Position numbers and translations under genes: made by a program. From the IMG/VR virus record IMGVR_UViG_3300021964_005792, positions 1-35,372 of that record: 35,372 nucleotides of DNA. One strand, given 5' to 3'. This DNA is from a virus. The notes beneath the pieces were generated by a model. That model was not told the origin of the DNA, made no database searches, and worked only from the letters and a program-made list of their open reading frames with translations. Below are positions 22,985-34,464 of the stretch, one piece after another. Within the stretch, counting starts at the first letter, position 1, and each line of letters begins with the position of its first letter.

Positions 22985-23152
22985 ATGAAATTACCTGTTA
23001 AGTTTACTGTACCTGTAATTGAGTTTGAAGGTGATCTAGCATTAGAATTTCCTGACGAGCTAATGGCTGAGGCTGGTTGGAAAGTTGGAGATACCCTAGA
23101 ATGGTACGATAATGAAGACGGTTCTTGGACGATAAAGAAAAAAGATGAGTGA
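22985..23152 (+). CDS. AbrB/MazE-like small protein
   Basis: This is a 55-residue protein with the swapped-hairpin pattern LEFPDELMAEAGWKVGDTLEWYDNEDG, as in SpoVT/AbrB-type DNA-binding proteins and antitoxins. Similar single-domain proteins are found in T4-like marine phages. I see no toxin gene beside it. The ATG at 22985 follows the queD stop by one base; it overlaps queE by 8 bp. A regulatory role is possible but unproven. Confidence 0.75.
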   Translation: MKLPVKFTVPVIEFEGDLALEFPDELMAEAGWKVGDTLEWYDNEDGSWTIKKKDE

Positions 23153-24032
23153 TAAAAAATATGCTTACAGCGAGATCTTCTACTCTATGCAGGGGGAAGG
23201 TCACTACACCGGTGAACCTACAGCTTGGTTGAGGTTCTTTCTTTGTAACTTGCAATGTGATGGATTTGGTCAGAAAGATCCAACTAATCCAGATACGTAT
23301 GATCTACCATATCAAAAGATCAAAGTAGAGGACTTTAAACGAATCGAAGACCTTCCTGTATTTGAGAAAGGTTGTGATTCGTCATACTCATGGTCTGCTA
23401 AGTTTAAACATCTTCAGCACAAACATACTGCTAATGAGATTGCAGAAAAGATTCTAGACGTTATTCCCAACCGTAAGTTTGACAACAATATCCATATGTG
23501 CTTTACTGGTGGCGAGCCTATGATGAAGCACGCCCAACAAGCCAGCTGTGCAGTGTTGCAGTACTATGAACAACACGGACAGGATATTCCATCAGTAACA
23601 TATGAAACAAACGGTACGCAAGAACTGACAGACGATTTTCTTGGCTATTGGTCATCGAATATGTCGACGGAGCTGTTCTTTTCTATTAGTCCCAAGTTGT
23701 GGACAGTTGCTGGCGAGAAGCGAGAAAAGGCAATTCAACCACAAGTGGTGTCACAATATTATGATCTATCGCCAGAGGGACAGCTAAAGTTTGTATGTAG
23801 CGGTACTGAGGAAAGCTGGCAAGAGATTGACGATGTAATTAAGTTGTATCGTGCAGAGGGTGTGAAGTATCCTATTTGGATCATGCCTCTTGGTGGTACG
23901 GTTGAGGGTCAGCGAGGAGAAGTAGATGGCCATATTCCAGCTCATGTTATTGCTGACGCCGCCTTGGCACGTGGGTATCGGGTATCTGCTCGTGTACATG
24001 CTTATCTCTGGGCAAACATCATCGGAAAGTAA
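23145..24032 (+). CDS. queE: QueE-like 7-carboxy-7-deazaguanine synthase (radical SAM)
   Basis: This 295-residue protein has EIFYSMQGEGHYTGEPTAWLR at the start and CFTGGEPMM in the middle, as in QueE. The iron-sulfur motif is stretched: Cys34-x3-Cys38, then 38 residues before Cys77 (KGCDSSYSW), instead of the usual close third Cys. It would convert carboxytetrahydropterin to carboxydeazaguanine, the QueC substrate. It is longer than bacterial QueE (about 210-240). I infer that Cys77 is the third cluster ligand because no nearer Cys exists. Confidence 0.88.
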   Translation: MSDKKYAYSEIFYSMQGEGHYTGEPTAWLRFFLCNLQCDGFGQKDPTNPDTYDLPYQKIKVEDFKRIEDLPVFEKGCDSSYSWSAKFKHLQHKHTANEIAEKILDVIPNRKFDNNIHMCFTGGEPMMKHAQQASCAVLQYYEQHGQDIPSVTYETNGTQELTDDFLGYWSSNMSTELFFSISPKLWTVAGEKREKAIQPQVVSQYYDLSPEGQLKFVCSGTEESWQEIDDVIKLYRAEGVKYPIWIMPLGGTVEGQRGEVDGHIPAHVIADAALARGYRVSARVHAYLWANIIGK

Positions 24033-25910: not shown

Positions 25911-26594
25911 ATGCAACCAATGGAAAAATGTGACCCAGTGCTTGGCGAACAGGTTCGTCAGCATCTGTTAAGTGTAGGTCTAGAGACCCCTATGGTCTAC
26001 GACCGAGTCAAGGCTGATCAGAAGACTAAGATTAACAATATCGCTAGTCACTTTACAGCCATCATGGAAGAATTGGGATTAGACCTCACCGACGACTCGT
26101 TGTGTGATACACCCAACCGCGTTGCGAAGATGTATGCGCGTGAGATTTTCTTTGGTCTTGACTATGATAACTTTCCGAAGTGTACTCGGATCGAGAACAA
26201 GCTAGGTCAGACAGACAGCTTTGTTCTTGAGCGTAAGATCAACGTTCAGTCGAACTGTGAACATCACTTTGTTGTGATTGATGGTAAGGCGACTGTTGCG
26301 TACATTCCGAAGAAGACTATTCTCGGTTTGTCTAAGCTGAACCGTATCGTTCAGTTCTTTGCTAAGCGTCCGCAAGTGCAAGAACGTCTGACTGAGCAGA
26401 TTGCTGAGACGATCAGCTTTATCACAGACTCGCCCGATGTTGCTGTGTACATCGATGGTGCGCACTACTGTGTTAAGTCTCGTGGTATCCAAGACGTTAC
26501 GTCGACGACGATGACGCTTGCTACTCGTGGCGCGTTCGCTGAGATGAATTCTGAGCTTCGTCGTGAGTTTCTAAACTCTGCACGTATGGCGTAA
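25911..26594 (+). CDS. folE: GTP cyclohydrolase I (FolE)
   Basis: This 227-residue protein has CDTPNRVAKMY, then SNCEHHFVVIDGK (zinc Cys and His), ILGLSKLNRIVQFFAKRPQVQERL and AHYCVKSRGI (second zinc Cys). It makes dihydroneopterin triphosphate from GTP, the first step to preQ0 and also to folate, which ThyX uses. AGGAG lies 6 bp before the ATG. The local codon choice is somewhat richer in C/G than its neighbours. The stop overlaps the next ATG. Confidence 0.96.
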   Translation: MQPMEKCDPVLGEQVRQHLLSVGLETPMVYDRVKADQKTKINNIASHFTAIMEELGLDLTDDSLCDTPNRVAKMYAREIFFGLDYDNFPKCTRIENKLGQTDSFVLERKINVQSNCEHHFVVIDGKATVAYIPKKTILGLSKLNRIVQFFAKRPQVQERLTEQIAETISFITDSPDVAVYIDGAHYCVKSRGIQDVTSTTMTLATRGAFAEMNSELRREFLNSARMA

Positions 26595-31018: not shown

Positions 31019-31525
31019 ATGCTTCAAATGATTACAACAATTCTCACATCGTTGACTATTGCATCATCAGCTGCTCAAGCACAAGCTCCTGCCTCAATGG
31101 AAGAAAAGGATCACACTGCTGTAGAGTGTCTAGCCCTGAACATTTACTATGAAACAAGTTCCAGCTCGCTGATTGATGCGATGGCTGTGTCTGATGTCGT
31201 TCAAAATCGCGTACTTGACAGCAGGTATCCTGACACTGTATGTGGTGTTGTTAAGCAAGCGCGTAAGACAAAGAGTGGAAAGATTATTCGAAACAAGTGT
31301 CAGTTCAGCTGGTATTGTGATGGCAAGTCGGATAATCCCCGTGACTTGAAGGCATGGGAACAGGCATATCGTTGGGCCCGTGAGTTCTTGTATGCAGGTC
31401 GTTTCCGTGGAATCACAGATGGTGCTACTCACTATCATGCTTATTACGTCAAGCCGAATTGGCGTAAAACAAAGACCTACATAGTAAGAGTAGGCTCACA
31501 TTTATACTATCGATGGGAAAAGTAA
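31019..31525 (+). CDS. SleB/CwlJ-type cell wall hydrolase (secreted lysin)
   Basis: A hydrophobic signal peptide ends at AQA (about residue 22). The Hydrolase_2 core follows: ALNIYYETSSSSLIDAMAVSDVVQNRV, YPDTVCGVV, CQFSWYCDGK and GATHYHAYYVKP. The YYE glutamate is the likely catalytic residue. The enzyme cleaves peptidoglycan glycan strands. Export by the host Sec system would place it in the periplasm and could remove the need for a holin. ATG 31019 or 31028 both keep the signal peptide. It overlaps the next gene by 13 bp. Confidence 0.9.
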   Translation: MLQMITTILTSLTIASSAAQAQAPASMEEKDHTAVECLALNIYYETSSSSLIDAMAVSDVVQNRVLDSRYPDTVCGVVKQARKTKSGKIIRNKCQFSWYCDGKSDNPRDLKAWEQAYRWAREFLYAGRFRGITDGATHYHAYYVKPNWRKTKTYIVRVGSHLYYRWEK

Positions 31526-32175
31526 AAACATTTATTGATCATGACTTTGGTAAATTAGAGCGGATCACTAACGAAGATGGTTCAAGAGTATACCAAACAC
31601 CAACAGGTCAAAAGTATCCTAGCGTCACTACAATCACGAGTCAATATAAGATGGCTCAGATTATGGAGTGGCGTCGACGGGTAGGTGAACAGACTGCAAA
31701 CGCAATCTCATCGAAGGCATCATCTCGTGGTACTCGTATTCACACTCTTTGTGAGTACTACTTGAAAGAGAACAAGACTGATGCAAGAGCTGATGATAAT
31801 GATATGTTTACATCAATGATTCCGTATCTTGATGAGATCGATAACATAAGAGCTCTAGAGACGCCACTATATTCTGACCACCTCCAGGTTGCTGGTACAG
31901 TCGACTGTGTTGCTGAGTTCAGAGGTCGTCTGTCAATTATTGACTTCAAGACGTCTCGTCGGTGGAAGTCAGCTGATGACATTCATGATTACTTCATGCA
32001 GACGGCTTGCTATGCTGTAGCGTTTGAAGAAAGAACAAAACTTCCTGTTACTCAACTTGTTATTATTATGGGTGTTGATGACAATGATCCCCAACTGTTC
32101 ATTGAACATCGAGACAAATGGATTGGTGGTTTTATACAGTTGAGAGAGAAGTACAGAGCTAGTAAAGGGATCTAG
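31513..32175 (+). CDS. PD-(D/E)XK exonuclease (RecB/Cas4-like fold)
   Basis: This 220-residue protein has the nuclease core GTRIHTLCEYYL (helix with His/Glu), VAGTVDCVAEFRGRLSIIDFKTS (Asp and Asp-x-Lys catalytic pair) and YFMQTACYAVAF (QxxxY). Similar exonucleases are typical of marine T4-like phages. Substrate and partner are unknown; a role in DNA processing or host DNA breakdown is likely. It shares a 13-bp overlap with the lysin gene. Confidence 0.88.
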   Translation: MGKVKTFIDHDFGKLERITNEDGSRVYQTPTGQKYPSVTTITSQYKMAQIMEWRRRVGEQTANAISSKASSRGTRIHTLCEYYLKENKTDARADDNDMFTSMIPYLDEIDNIRALETPLYSDHLQVAGTVDCVAEFRGRLSIIDFKTSRRWKSADDIHDYFMQTACYAVAFEERTKLPVTQLVIIMGVDDNDPQLFIEHRDKWIGGFIQLREKYRASKGI

Positions 32176-32392: not shown

Positions 32393-33256
32393 ATGAAACC
32401 AATCATCGCGGCTCTTGCAGCTACAATCACACTCACAGCACAAGCTGCTATTACTGGCGCTGGTGCAACATTCCCAGCTCCCGTTTACTTTAAATGGGCA
32501 GAGCAATATAAACAAGAGACTGGTATTGAAGTTAATTACCAGGCAATCGGATCTTCGGGTGGTATCAAACAGATCGGTCGTAAGACTGTTGACTTTGGTG
32601 CATCTGATGTTGCACGTTCAGAAGCAGACCTCAAGAAAGATGGTCAAGTACAATTCCCCACAGTGATGGGTGGTGTCGTAGTTGTAGTCAATCTGCCAGG
32701 TGTAGAGAAAAACCAAATTAATCTCACAACAGATCAAGTTGCTCGATTGTTTTCTGGTTCGGTAAAGAACTGGAAAGAGATCGATGCAAGTCTACCTGAC
32801 ATGCCTGTCACGGTTGCGCACCGTTCAGACGGTTCTGGCACAACTTCTATCTTCACTAACTATCTTGCTAGCAACTCAAAAGAGTTTAAGTTGAAGCCAG
32901 GTAAAGCAGTGAAGTGGGAAGGTAATACAATGGGTGGTAAAGGCAACGCCGGTGTGGCTGCTATGGTTACACAAATTAAAGGAGCAGTCGGCTATGTGGA
33001 ATATGCTTTTGCTAAGCAAAATGATCTTACGACAACTACGCTTAACGGTGTAGCACCAAGTGCCGATACGTTCAAGTCTGGTGACTGGGCTATCACAGCA
33101 CAGACATTCATTATCGTCTATCCTAACGGCGAGAATACAAAAGCTGTTTACAAGTTCTTTGAATGGGCTTATAATAATGATCAAATTGCAGAGGAACTTG
33201 ATTATGTTCCGTTGTCTGACAAGACAAAGAACGAGTCAAGAAAACTTTGGCAATAA
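32393..33256 (+). CDS. pstS: PstS-like periplasmic phosphate-binding protein
   Basis: This 287-residue protein has a Sec signal peptide ending near QAA (residue 19). The phosphate-binding loops are AGATFPAPVYFKW, YQAIGSSGGIKQI, FGASDVARS and HRSDGSGTTSIF. It would feed the host PstCAB transporter under phosphate starvation; marine T4-like phages often carry pstS. It is shorter than bacterial PstS (about 320-350). AAGGAG lies 8 bp before the ATG. Its stop overlaps the AATAAATA site before the tmRNA. Confidence 0.95.
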   Translation: MKPIIAALAATITLTAQAAITGAGATFPAPVYFKWAEQYKQETGIEVNYQAIGSSGGIKQIGRKTVDFGASDVARSEADLKKDGQVQFPTVMGGVVVVVNLPGVEKNQINLTTDQVARLFSGSVKNWKEIDASLPDMPVTVAHRSDGSGTTSIFTNYLASNSKEFKLKPGKAVKWEGNTMGGKGNAGVAAMVTQIKGAVGYVEYAFAKQNDLTTTTLNGVAPSADTFKSGDWAITAQTFIIVYPNGENTKAVYKFFEWAYNNDQIAEELDYVPLSDKTKNESRKLWQ

Positions 33257-33259
33257 ATA
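33252..33259 (+). promoter_or_regulatory. Late promoter-like site before the tmRNA gene
   Basis: AATAAATA has one mismatch from TATAAATA and overlaps the pstS stop. The predicted start about 6 bp downstream falls at 33265, within the first helix of the tmRNA acceptor piece. The tmRNA may therefore be a late transcript, in addition to read-through from pstS. Confidence 0.45.
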
Positions 33260-33262
33260 GTA

Positions 33263-33404
33263 TTGGATCTGACGAGCAGTAATGTTTCGTCTTCACCGGA
33301 TGCCTAGAGCGAGCAAACCCAGCTATCTGATCCAAAATTTATTGCTGTATGAAGCAATGAGAAAGGTGTTCTGGACGGCGGTTCGATTCCGCCCACCTCC
33401 ACCA
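33263..33404 (+). ncRNA. ssrA: Permuted tmRNA, acceptor piece (3' half of standard tmRNA)
   Basis: The 3' end is a tRNA-like half: T arm GGCGG-TTCGATT-CCGCC (33377-33393), acceptor strand CACCTCC (33394-33400), then encoded ACCA (33401-33404). Upstream, TTGGATC (33263-33269) pairs with GATCCAA (33329-33335), enclosing a GACGA/TCGTC hairpin (33271-33291). ATTGCT/AGCAAT forms another hairpin (33341-33357). The acceptor strand pairs with the 5' end of the coding piece at 33474-33480, and the third pair is G-U, the alanine identity signal. The 5' end is an estimate. Confidence 0.9.
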
Positions 33405-33480
33405 TAAGCATATAGTCTACTGGCGAATGAGATAACAATGCTCATAGTAAGATCCAAACTATATGTTTATGATGGGGGTG
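33394..33480 (+). other. Pre-tmRNA joining helix and intervening segment
   Basis: Bases 33394-33416 pair with 33458-33480 over 23 positions, with only three G-U pairs and no mismatch. The helix comprises the 7-bp acceptor stem plus 16 bp of the removed segment. The 41-base loop (33417-33457) has a small ATGAG/CTCAT hairpin. Host RNases would cut here (RNase P at 33473/33474 and 3' processing after the CCA) to release the two mature ends. Confidence 0.9.
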
Positions 33481-33701
33481 TACAGGTTTCGACAGGGCAA
33501 TGAGTAACAGAGTGGACAGCACGGTAATGTGAAAACCGTAGGGTTGGGACTACCCGGCCGAAGAAGCAAAAAACTATAAATGCCAATGATGAGGTATTTG
33601 CTCTAGCCGCTTAAGGCTAGGTGGGGATTCGCAGGTGTTCCTTATTACCCAAACACCTGCAACCTTCTCCGGGCGGGTCAGCCTCGGAAATAACACTTTC
33701 C
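33474..33701 (+). ncRNA. ssrA: Permuted tmRNA, coding piece (tag ANDEVFALAA)
   Basis: It begins GGGGGTG (33474-33480) followed by a D-arm analogue with TTTCGACAGGG, as at the 5' end of standard tmRNAs. A pseudoknot-like stretch follows (ACGGT/ACCGT, 33520-33540 region). The AAAAAACTATAAAT lead-in precedes resume codon GCC at 33582. The tag frame 33582-33614 reads ANDEVFALAA and TAA. Hairpins follow: CTAGCC/GGCTAG around the stop, GCAGGTGT/ACACCTGC (33631-33660) and TCCGGGC/GCC-T-CGGA (33668-33688). The 3' end is uncertain (about 33690-33715). Confidence 0.92.
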
Positions 33702-33718
33702 ATCTAGTTGACGTCAAG

Positions 33719-33752
33719 TCGAATATACAAGACACTGAACGGAACAACTGAG
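33719..33752 (+). repeat. Leader repeat, copy 1 (before the SWIM gene)
   Basis: This 34-bp segment ends 7 bp before the ATG at 33760. It matches 34090-34123 at 27 of 34 positions, with six of seven differences being transitions. It may be a shared 5'-leader or translation-control element. Confidence 0.6.
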
Positions 33753-33759
33753 GAAGCGT

Positions 33760-34101
33760 ATGGAAGCACTACAAGAAACTACGGTGTGGGACTACCCTAA
33801 CCACACATATCTACTTGATGGTAGCAAGTTGGTGGCATACCTCCGCCAGGGGGAATCTGAACCAACTTACTTCAAAAATGGCATTTCTGGATTTGATCGC
33901 CGGGGACGAACATTCGTGAAAGCGGATATTAGTTTATTTCCCCGGGCAGGAAAGTCTCAAGATTTGGTTGAAGTTCCGGGCAGTAATGGTAAAAAGTACC
34001 AAGTTAATCTTGCTACCGGGCGGTGTTCCTGCCCCGGATTTAATTTCCGCGGAGATTGTAAGCACATTAAATTGGCTGTTGACCTGAAATCGAATACATA
34101 A
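33760..34101 (+). CDS. SWIM-type zinc finger protein
   Basis: This 113-residue protein has a SWIM motif near its C-terminus, CSCPGFNFRGDCKH (CxC then CxH), which binds zinc and contacts DNA or protein. The N-terminal 75 residues have no known domain. SWIM domains occur in recombination and transposase-associated proteins. AGGAAG lies upstream of the ATG. It is the first gene after the tmRNA, preceded by leader repeat copy 1. Confidence 0.85.
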   Translation: MEALQETTVWDYPNHTYLLDGSKLVAYLRQGESEPTYFKNGISGFDRRGRTFVKADISLFPRAGKSQDLVEVPGSNGKKYQVNLATGRCSCPGFNFRGDCKHIKLAVDLKSNT

Positions 34102-34123
34102 GATACTGGACGCAACAGTTGAG
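34090..34123 (+). repeat. Leader repeat, copy 2 (before the next gene)
   Basis: Second copy of the 34-bp element, overlapping the SWIM gene's last codons and ending 14 bp before the ATG at 34138, with an AAAAGGAG site just after it. In both copies the element directly precedes a ribosome-binding site. Confidence 0.6.
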
Positions 34124-34137
34124 AAAAGGAGTTCGAG

Positions 34138-34464
34138 ATGTCCAAGCTAATTATCTTCACTCAGTATTGCGAAAACTACGGTTCGGCCGAAGAGCCGTAC
34201 TGGAAGCTGAAGGGCGGCTCTGAGTACGTGGTCGAGAGCCTGGACTTCGACGCCGACTACGAGTGGGCGGAAGCTCGGGTTGATCAGATCTTGAACAACG
34301 TTCGTGATCAGGTGGAAGTTGCCAACGACTTCTGTGAAGAGTTTATTGTAGGTTGGTCTATCCACTCGGATGATTACTTGACTGACTTCGAGCGCGCCCA
34401 GCTCGAGTATGATGGTAAGATCGAGTTTCCTACGAAGGTTTTGGAGGTGAATGTAAATGCGTGA
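34138..34464 (+). CDS. Conserved acidic phage protein, unknown function
   Basis: This 108-residue acidic protein starts MSKLIIFTQYCENYGSAEEPYWKLKGG; this QYCENYG-type opening is found in unknown phage proteins. The rest is helical and rich in Asp and Glu. AAGGAG lies about 8 bp before the ATG. Its codons end in C or G far more often than most genes in the window, suggesting a different origin or strong codon optimisation. Confidence 0.75.
   Translation: MSKLIIFTQYCENYGSAEEPYWKLKGGSEYVVESLDFDADYEWAEARVDQILNNVRDQVEVANDFCEEFIVGWSIHSDDYLTDFERAQLEYDGKIEFPTKVLEVNVNA

Follow-up and report, generated by a model that had tools for sequence, protein, structure and literature searches.

A phage-encoded permuted tmRNA, probably two-piece, in a T4-like phage

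Does a T4-like phage carry a working tmRNA gene whose two ends are swapped, and from where would such a gene have come? The question is raised by the 35,372-base IMG/VR virus record IMGVR_UViG_3300021964_005792 (positions 1-35,372), the whole of which was analysed and is called the window below. From the letters of the DNA, the initial annotation placed a tRNA-like 3' end before a tmRNA 5' end; it proposed running ARAGORN and Infernal with permuted models, and named covariance models that match only a fragment as evidence against the gene. The swapped order and its coordinates were confirmed by the sequence, ARAGORN and two Rfam models (Table 1). ARAGORN called a permuted tmRNA at 33312-33705 with the tag ANDEVFALAA, its sole gene in the window. 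The model RF04321 (tmRNA_permuted) matched 33343-33614 with 134.1 bits (gathering 47, E 2.5e-26, model positions 1-213 of 213), and RF01850 (beta_tmRNA) matched 33291-33680 with 130.1 bits (gathering 84, E 1.2e-39, model positions 1-331 of 331), both thus being matched end to end. The beta model was the best type model for the window within the tmRNA clan. RF04321 rose above its cut-off in one of 14 control genomes. The fold of 33377-33500 had a z-score of -4.4, and none of 200 shuffles equalled it.

Table 1. Coordinates of the permuted tmRNA gene and its upstream neighbours in the window.
Feature	Position	Strand	Basis
PD-(D/E)XK exonuclease (phrog_298), upstream neighbour also in many relatives	31513..32175	+	profile match, synteny
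PstS-like phosphate-binding protein, between exonuclease and tmRNA	32393..33256	+	phrog_5385, PF12849
Late-promoter-like AATAAATA, overlapping stop codon of PstS-like gene	33252..33259	+	ATAAATA at 33253, script
Acceptor (tRNA-like 3') piece with 5' protrusion	33291..33404	+	RF01850 from 33291; ARAGORN start 33312
Helix P2, 5' strand, pairs with 33493-33499	33367..33373	+	RF01850 alignment
T arm, stem GGCGG/CCGCC, loop TTCGATT	33377..33393	+	RF04321/RF01850 alignments
Acceptor 3' strand CACCTCC (33394-33400) and encoded ACCA (33401-33404)	33394..33404	+	sequence, Rfam alignments
Intervening sequence, 69 nt, hairpin stacking on acceptor stem; excision expected	33405..33473	+	pairing 33394-33416/33458-33480
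Coding (mRNA-like) piece, 5' end GGGGGTG (33474-33480) to tag stop	33474..33614	+	RF04321
TTTCGACAGGG	33487-33497	+	read from sequence
Tag ANDEVFALAA (33582-33611), resume codon GCC at 33582, stop 33612-33614	33582..33614	+	ARAGORN, script
Coding piece 3' part, hairpin 33631-33639/33652-33660	33615..33705	+	ARAGORN end 33705, inverted repeat, RF01850 to 33680

In the window the acceptor piece is encoded upstream of the coding piece. The tRNA-like domain has a G3-U70 pair (GGGGGTG/CACCTCC, U70 being the T at 33398) and a CCA end within ACCA. A G3-U70 pair sets alanine identity. The tag frame closes with a hydrophobic degron and a stop codon. Together these features indicate that the window carries a phage-encoded, permuted tmRNA of a T4-like phage, probably in two pieces.

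The carrier had been taken for a T4-like phage, and the gene content agrees: the window encodes a T4-type DNA polymerase (phrog_262), a gp55-like late sigma factor (1966-2556), a sliding clamp, a clamp loader and UvsX, together with a DnaB-like helicase, SbcC, an endolysin, a PD-(D/E)XK exonuclease and a PstS-like protein. The closest named phage by DNA polymerase, among the matches listed, was Phage C48C1 (Kyanoviridae listing), with 56.1% identity; the cyanophages ranked after it reached at most 49%. A permuted tmRNA was looked for in Phage C48C1 and not found.

The initial annotation described a 23-bp helix with three G-U pairs between the two ends. The helix exists, with 33394-33416 pairing with 33458-33480 in 22 of 23 positions, but it has two G-U pairs and one C-A mismatch. 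The acceptor stem was extended by at least 8 pairs into the intervening sequence in 92 of the 112 distinct viral genes listed (68 of 1120 mononucleotide shuffles) and in 20 of 22 distinct bacterial genes (33 of 220 shuffles); these counts leave out L019, L039, L041, L061 and L300, the first four of which look implausible. Since it is seen in most viral and bacterial permuted genes, a stem-extending hairpin is a common trait of such precursors. The idea that phages have the long helix as a device of their own was considered and ruled out, as the bacterial genes have the same helix and 20 of the 112 viral genes, among the matches listed, do without it. The median intervening sequence was 72 nt in the viral genes listed and 32.5 nt in the bacterial ones.

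Permuted tmRNAs in phages have been described before, and the view that phage tmRNAs are one-piece is outdated. According to PMC9004378 (2022), the T4-like Methylophilales phage Melnitz has a two-piece tmRNA, for which early expression was proposed; 402 phages gave 133 unique tmRNA structures, 53 of which ARAGORN suggested to be two-piece (50 of these marine or aquatic); and a permuted tmRNA was present in 17 of 47 Melnitz-like contigs. The tree in that paper has cyanobacterial, gammaproteobacterial (including former Betaproteobacteria) and alphaproteobacterial tmRNA lineages, each shared with their phages. Because the gammaproteobacterial lineage there includes phages, a beta-like phage tmRNA may already sit in that tree. 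PMC11915505 describes RF04321 and gives a list of 79 unique tmRNA sequences from phages. The suggestion of an unreported viral type is thus superseded by PMC9004378, and the GenBank records of Bhz51, Marzo and Mosig, which ARAGORN reads as permuted, also annotate a tmRNA.

Like Melnitz and the Pelagibacter phage Mosig (MT647606), the phage of the window is T4-like and has the permuted order. The Mosig locus runs endolysin, exonuclease, one gene, SsrA, gp33, thyX. Its PD-(D/E)XK exonuclease is 37% identical to that of the window and lies near SsrA in both, whereas no match was found between the two endolysins, both upstream. Between exonuclease and tmRNA stands PstS in the window and a hypothetical gene in Mosig, and the tmRNA is followed by a SWIM-domain gene in the window but by gp33 and thyX in Mosig. 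The ssrA type also differs, being alphaproteobacterial in Mosig (RF01849) and, according to PMC9004378, in Melnitz, but beta-like in the window; the Mosig tag is GEDNFALAA. Bacterial members of beta_tmRNA (RF01850, some Betaproteobacteria) and RF04321 resemble the window gene in the full-length match, the AND..(F/Y)ALAA-type tag and the intervening hairpin; the window gene differs from the beta_tmRNA members by a lower score, a longer intervening sequence and a separate tree position.

A search for the same order in other phages, as the initial annotation had advised, found it in viral contigs and in named phages of Stenotrophomonas, Xanthomonas, Alcaligenes, Pelagibacter and Synechococcus. 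In viral contigs, two scans with exact patterns yielded at least 120 loci and at least 119 further loci, with at least 51 permuted calls by ARAGORN in the first and at least 95 in the second. Four of the first 51 (L019, L039, L041 and L061) look implausible and do not enter the tree, the clusters or the helix counts. At least 144 loci, the window and Mosig included, fell into at least 89 clusters at 95% identity (L122 and L123 left out). The tmRNA type of the viral relatives is not uniform, and some are not beta-like: when seven other viral contigs were run against Rfam, five passed the beta threshold, one (L141) was of alpha type and one (L119) matched the general model only. The Synechococcus phage S-CAM1 (Kyanoviridae listing) has a permuted tmRNA like the window, but of cyanobacterial type (cyano_tmRNA, RF01851). 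The Cellulophaga phage Calle_1 gave a one-piece match with an odd tag.

The Stenotrophomonas and Xanthomonas phages Marzo, Bhz51, DLP6, QDWS359, Rb1 and X1 are, like the window, permuted by ARAGORN and match RF04321. Marzo, Bhz51 and DLP6 have sizes of 159-168 kb, and in Marzo and Bhz51 the tmRNA gene stands among tRNA genes. Five of the six phages and one IMG/VR contig form a tree group of their own (99/99), unlike the window. Permuted tmRNAs occur in the cultured Stenotrophomonas and Xanthomonas phages L122, L123, L294, L296, L297 and L301, the hosts of which presumably have a one-piece tmRNA. The tmRNA is unannotated in L123, L294 and L297; in QDWS359 (L296) its place is covered by a hypothetical protein annotated on the opposite strand.

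The neighbourhood of the gene is often, not always, conserved. Among the matches listed, 74 clusters had a flank long enough to judge, and in 39 of them, the window included, the exonuclease lay upstream on the tmRNA strand at a distance of at most 1.8 kb. The other 35 are without it; they include L105, which is the nearest distinct relative, as well as L192 and L144, both among the four rows closest to the window in the tree. Downstream of the tmRNA and within 5 kb, gp33 was found in 23 of 41 clusters and an endolysin in 21 of 41, again among the matches listed; in the window the endolysin lies upstream instead, and the 1.7 kb that follow the tmRNA showed neither gp33 nor thyX. Exonuclease and tmRNA distances were correlated (Spearman 0.52, n = 53 among the matches listed, none of 2000 permutations as high). 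The tmRNA of L080 differs from that of the window by 10% and its exonuclease by 59%; because the one is close and the other far, the tmRNA gene is also passed between phages. Among the open-licence literature matches listed, we found no account of a large T4-type lineage with an exonuclease-tmRNA locus. The window gene is real, yet of an already described kind, and what is new is modest: the size of the phage lineage and the often conserved locus. With at least 89 clusters, and the same exonuclease next to the gene in roughly half of those that have enough flank, the scans add to the evidence for a wide spread of permuted tmRNA in phages, which argues for a real trans-translation role during infection by these phages, a role that becomes testable in the cultured phages that carry such genes.

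In 95 permuted viral genes of the tag-based scan, 15 combinations of acceptor halves were listed (for example CACCTCC/GGGGGTG, CTGGTCC/GGGCCAG and CGCCTCC/GGGGGCG); as the parser demanded at least 6 of 7 pairs, they show the variety of matched halves more than the pairing itself. Among the matches listed, 93 of the 95 genes retained G3-U70, and 93 had ACCA. The two G3-U70 exceptions, L143 and L236, are probably misparsed, another parse having read their 5' end as GGGCCAG. The final acceptor parse covered 181 of 182 permuted ARAGORN calls, L061 being the one that failed. A plain MAFFT alignment, which does not depend on the acceptor parser, shows CC replaced by GG in the acceptor strand between the window and L144 and GG replaced by CC in the distant partner, which we read as a compensatory change between related phages. 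Where the scan pattern fixed the acceptor and not the tag, the tag ended in AA in 43 of 44 distinct genes and in LAA, MAA or IAA in 42 of 44, counts among the matches listed that include the implausible L019, L039 and L041. ANDEVFALAA had at least 17 different codings among the viral loci listed, and the L080 tag differs from that of the window at 9 of 30 bases and at 1 of 10 residues; by this comparison of codings, the tag is kept at the protein level. In L183 and L215 ARAGORN gave longer tags, AKTINANDEVFALAA, by translating the conserved lead-in that precedes the usual resume codon; a misplaced resume codon is the more likely cause.

We consider it probable that the gene is a complete, working permuted tmRNA of a T4-like phage, its two RNAs rescuing ribosomes with host SmpB and a protease, and that it has a history of phage descent and exchange. 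The gene would be transcribed as one precursor. RNase P would cut before G33474 and the 3' end would be trimmed to the ACCA ending at 33404, so that the intervening hairpin would be lost and two RNAs held together by the acceptor stem and P2. Alanyl-tRNA synthetase would charge the acceptor piece, and SmpB, assumed to come from the host, would bring the two-piece tmRNA to ribosomes that have stalled on mRNAs cut short or lacking a stop codon. ANDEVFALAA would then be added, and a ClpXP-type protease, likewise assumed to be the host's, would degrade the product; the outcome during infection would be extra rescue capacity. These steps, from processing through charging and delivery to tagging and breakdown of the product, are inferred because the parts of trans-translation are present except SmpB. 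No SmpB match (PF01668) was found in 13 of 13 phage records, eight of them of 156-177 kb, so host SmpB would be needed; some of these virus records may be fragments, and the missing match is therefore no proof of absence. The same search found SmpB in 10 of 14 control genomes.

The same conserved tag would also suit a tool of takeover, by which the phage would use its tmRNA to mark host proteins for breakdown and reuse of their amino acids, as was proposed for Melnitz in PMC9004378. Such a use could coexist with ribosome rescue, and the LAA-type ends of nearly all phage tags listed are in its favour. It is nevertheless unlikely in our judgement, as none of the 13 phage records held a phage SmpB that could redirect the tmRNA. 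Moreover, we know of no means for a tmRNA to select host proteins.

The origin of the gene was approached through bacterial genes of the same order. An exact-pattern scan of bacterial genome contigs with the resume region and the tag A-N-D-E-V-(F/Y) gave no matches. A wider pattern gave 20 loci, 18 of them permuted by ARAGORN, and 16 of the 18 were titled as Alcaligenaceae genera or Dechloromonas. With Infernal and stricter filters, 7 of 200 genomes from the order of a Dechloromonas genome passed the beta_tmRNA cut-off. Of 23 other loci from the Dechloromonas-order search, 21 were one-piece with a tag ending in ALAA, L285 was an implausible call and L283 gave none. A permuted tmRNA with the tag ANDESYAMAA and a long branch was also seen in L245, a MAG titled Chloroflexi (PBMB01000002.1), which is perhaps a phage contig or the result of misbinning.

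That the window gene is a betaproteobacterial host ssrA captured recently and carried with little function would fit beta_tmRNA as its best type model and the existence of beta-type permuted genes in bacteria. The comparisons made here render it distinctly improbable. The beta model gave 161-301 bits in the seven bacteria and 130 in the window. The nearest of 18 bacterial permuted genes compared (L257) matched 59% of the window's 394 positions (78% of those aligned), as against 89% (91% of those aligned) for the phage contig L105, a gap that is due in part to the shorter bacterial intervening sequence. The exonuclease neighbour is common to other phages. In a tree of 114 rows and 187 columns (L019, L039, L041, L061 and L300 left out, Marzo merged with its near copy Bhz51), the window grouped with L192, L144, L080 and L074, all viral, with support 98/94, and a clade with 100/99 was formed by six permuted rows from bacteria, of which five bear Alcaligenaceae titles. 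A single clade of the window and eight bacterial permuted rows was rejected (p-AU 0.0247, a post hoc test with the unstable rows L245 and L270 left out), which speaks against recent shared ancestry with the betaproteobacterial permuted genes. The viral grouping and the post hoc rejection together point to a phage as the recent source. The AU test did not reject the separation of all phage rows from all bacterial rows, in both directions (p 0.34 and 0.173), nor the union of all ten bacterial permuted rows in a single clade (p 0.289). An old host origin is compatible with the outcome of these other AU tests. Of the two origins first offered, capture from a host with such genes or an unreported viral type, neither fits well: the tree, the exonuclease locus and the AU test favour an established phage lineage. 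We thus prefer a gene that would descend within phages and pass between them, rather than one recently arrived from a sampled bacterium.

Permuted genes are scattered in the bacteria searched (7 of 200) yet common in the phage scans, which raises the question of the direction of transfer. T4-like phages could long have served as a reservoir of permuted tmRNA of the beta type, and the patchily distributed genes of Betaproteobacteria could be phage-derived, having replaced a one-piece gene; we regard this as a doubtful, though conceivable, extension.

A decoy role, in which the phage RNA competes for SmpB or for charging and so blocks host trans-translation, has been reported for the tag-less DS6A tmRNA, and PMC11915505 cites a phage tmRNA that inhibits the endogenous tmRNA in E. 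coli. For the window gene we hold it to be very improbable, as its tag and stop codon are intact and the tag is conserved at the protein level, neither of which a decoy would require. An artefact has next to no probability, nothing having been found in its favour: host contamination is ruled out by L156, a second IMG/VR contig that is 100% identical over the 394 nt and the neighbours but may be the same virus population, and by L105, whose identity to the window across PstS and the tmRNA is 80.5% (1377 aligned positions), and the full-length model scores rule out a chance look-alike or a fragment.

As to expression, the late promoters of T4-like phages have the consensus TATAAATA / NATAAATA, which the AATAAATA of Table 1 resembles, and the window has the gp55-like late sigma factor to go with it; expression late in infection would weakly fit this element. 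ATAAATA was present within 300 nt upstream of the T arm in 34 of the 124 distinct viral loci listed, the background being 0.077 per 300 nt without correction for local A+T content, and L105 is without it at the corresponding place. Sigma-70-type promoters near the tmRNA were not in excess (4, as against 3.7 in shuffles), and terminators near it were no more frequent than in shuffles.

Three further features of the window were observed. Pairing is possible between the stretch at 33263-33286 and 33434-33457 of the intervening sequence, or between its part 33263-33272 and 33326-33335, which would allow a switch or an alternative precursor fold; L105 is nearly identical in this leader, and L192, L080 and L144 align poorly there. 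At 23145-24032 and 25911-26594 lie QueE-like radical SAM and GTP cyclohydrolase genes, a possible sign that the phage DNA carries 7-deazaguanine modifications. A leader of the form TTGAC..TCGAATAYAYAAGAYACTGRACG is present in two copies (33708-33760 and 34079-34138), as against 0.01 matches expected, each a short way ahead of a small gene, of which the first encodes a SWIM zinc finger; the copies are perhaps a phage promoter or a regulatory leader.
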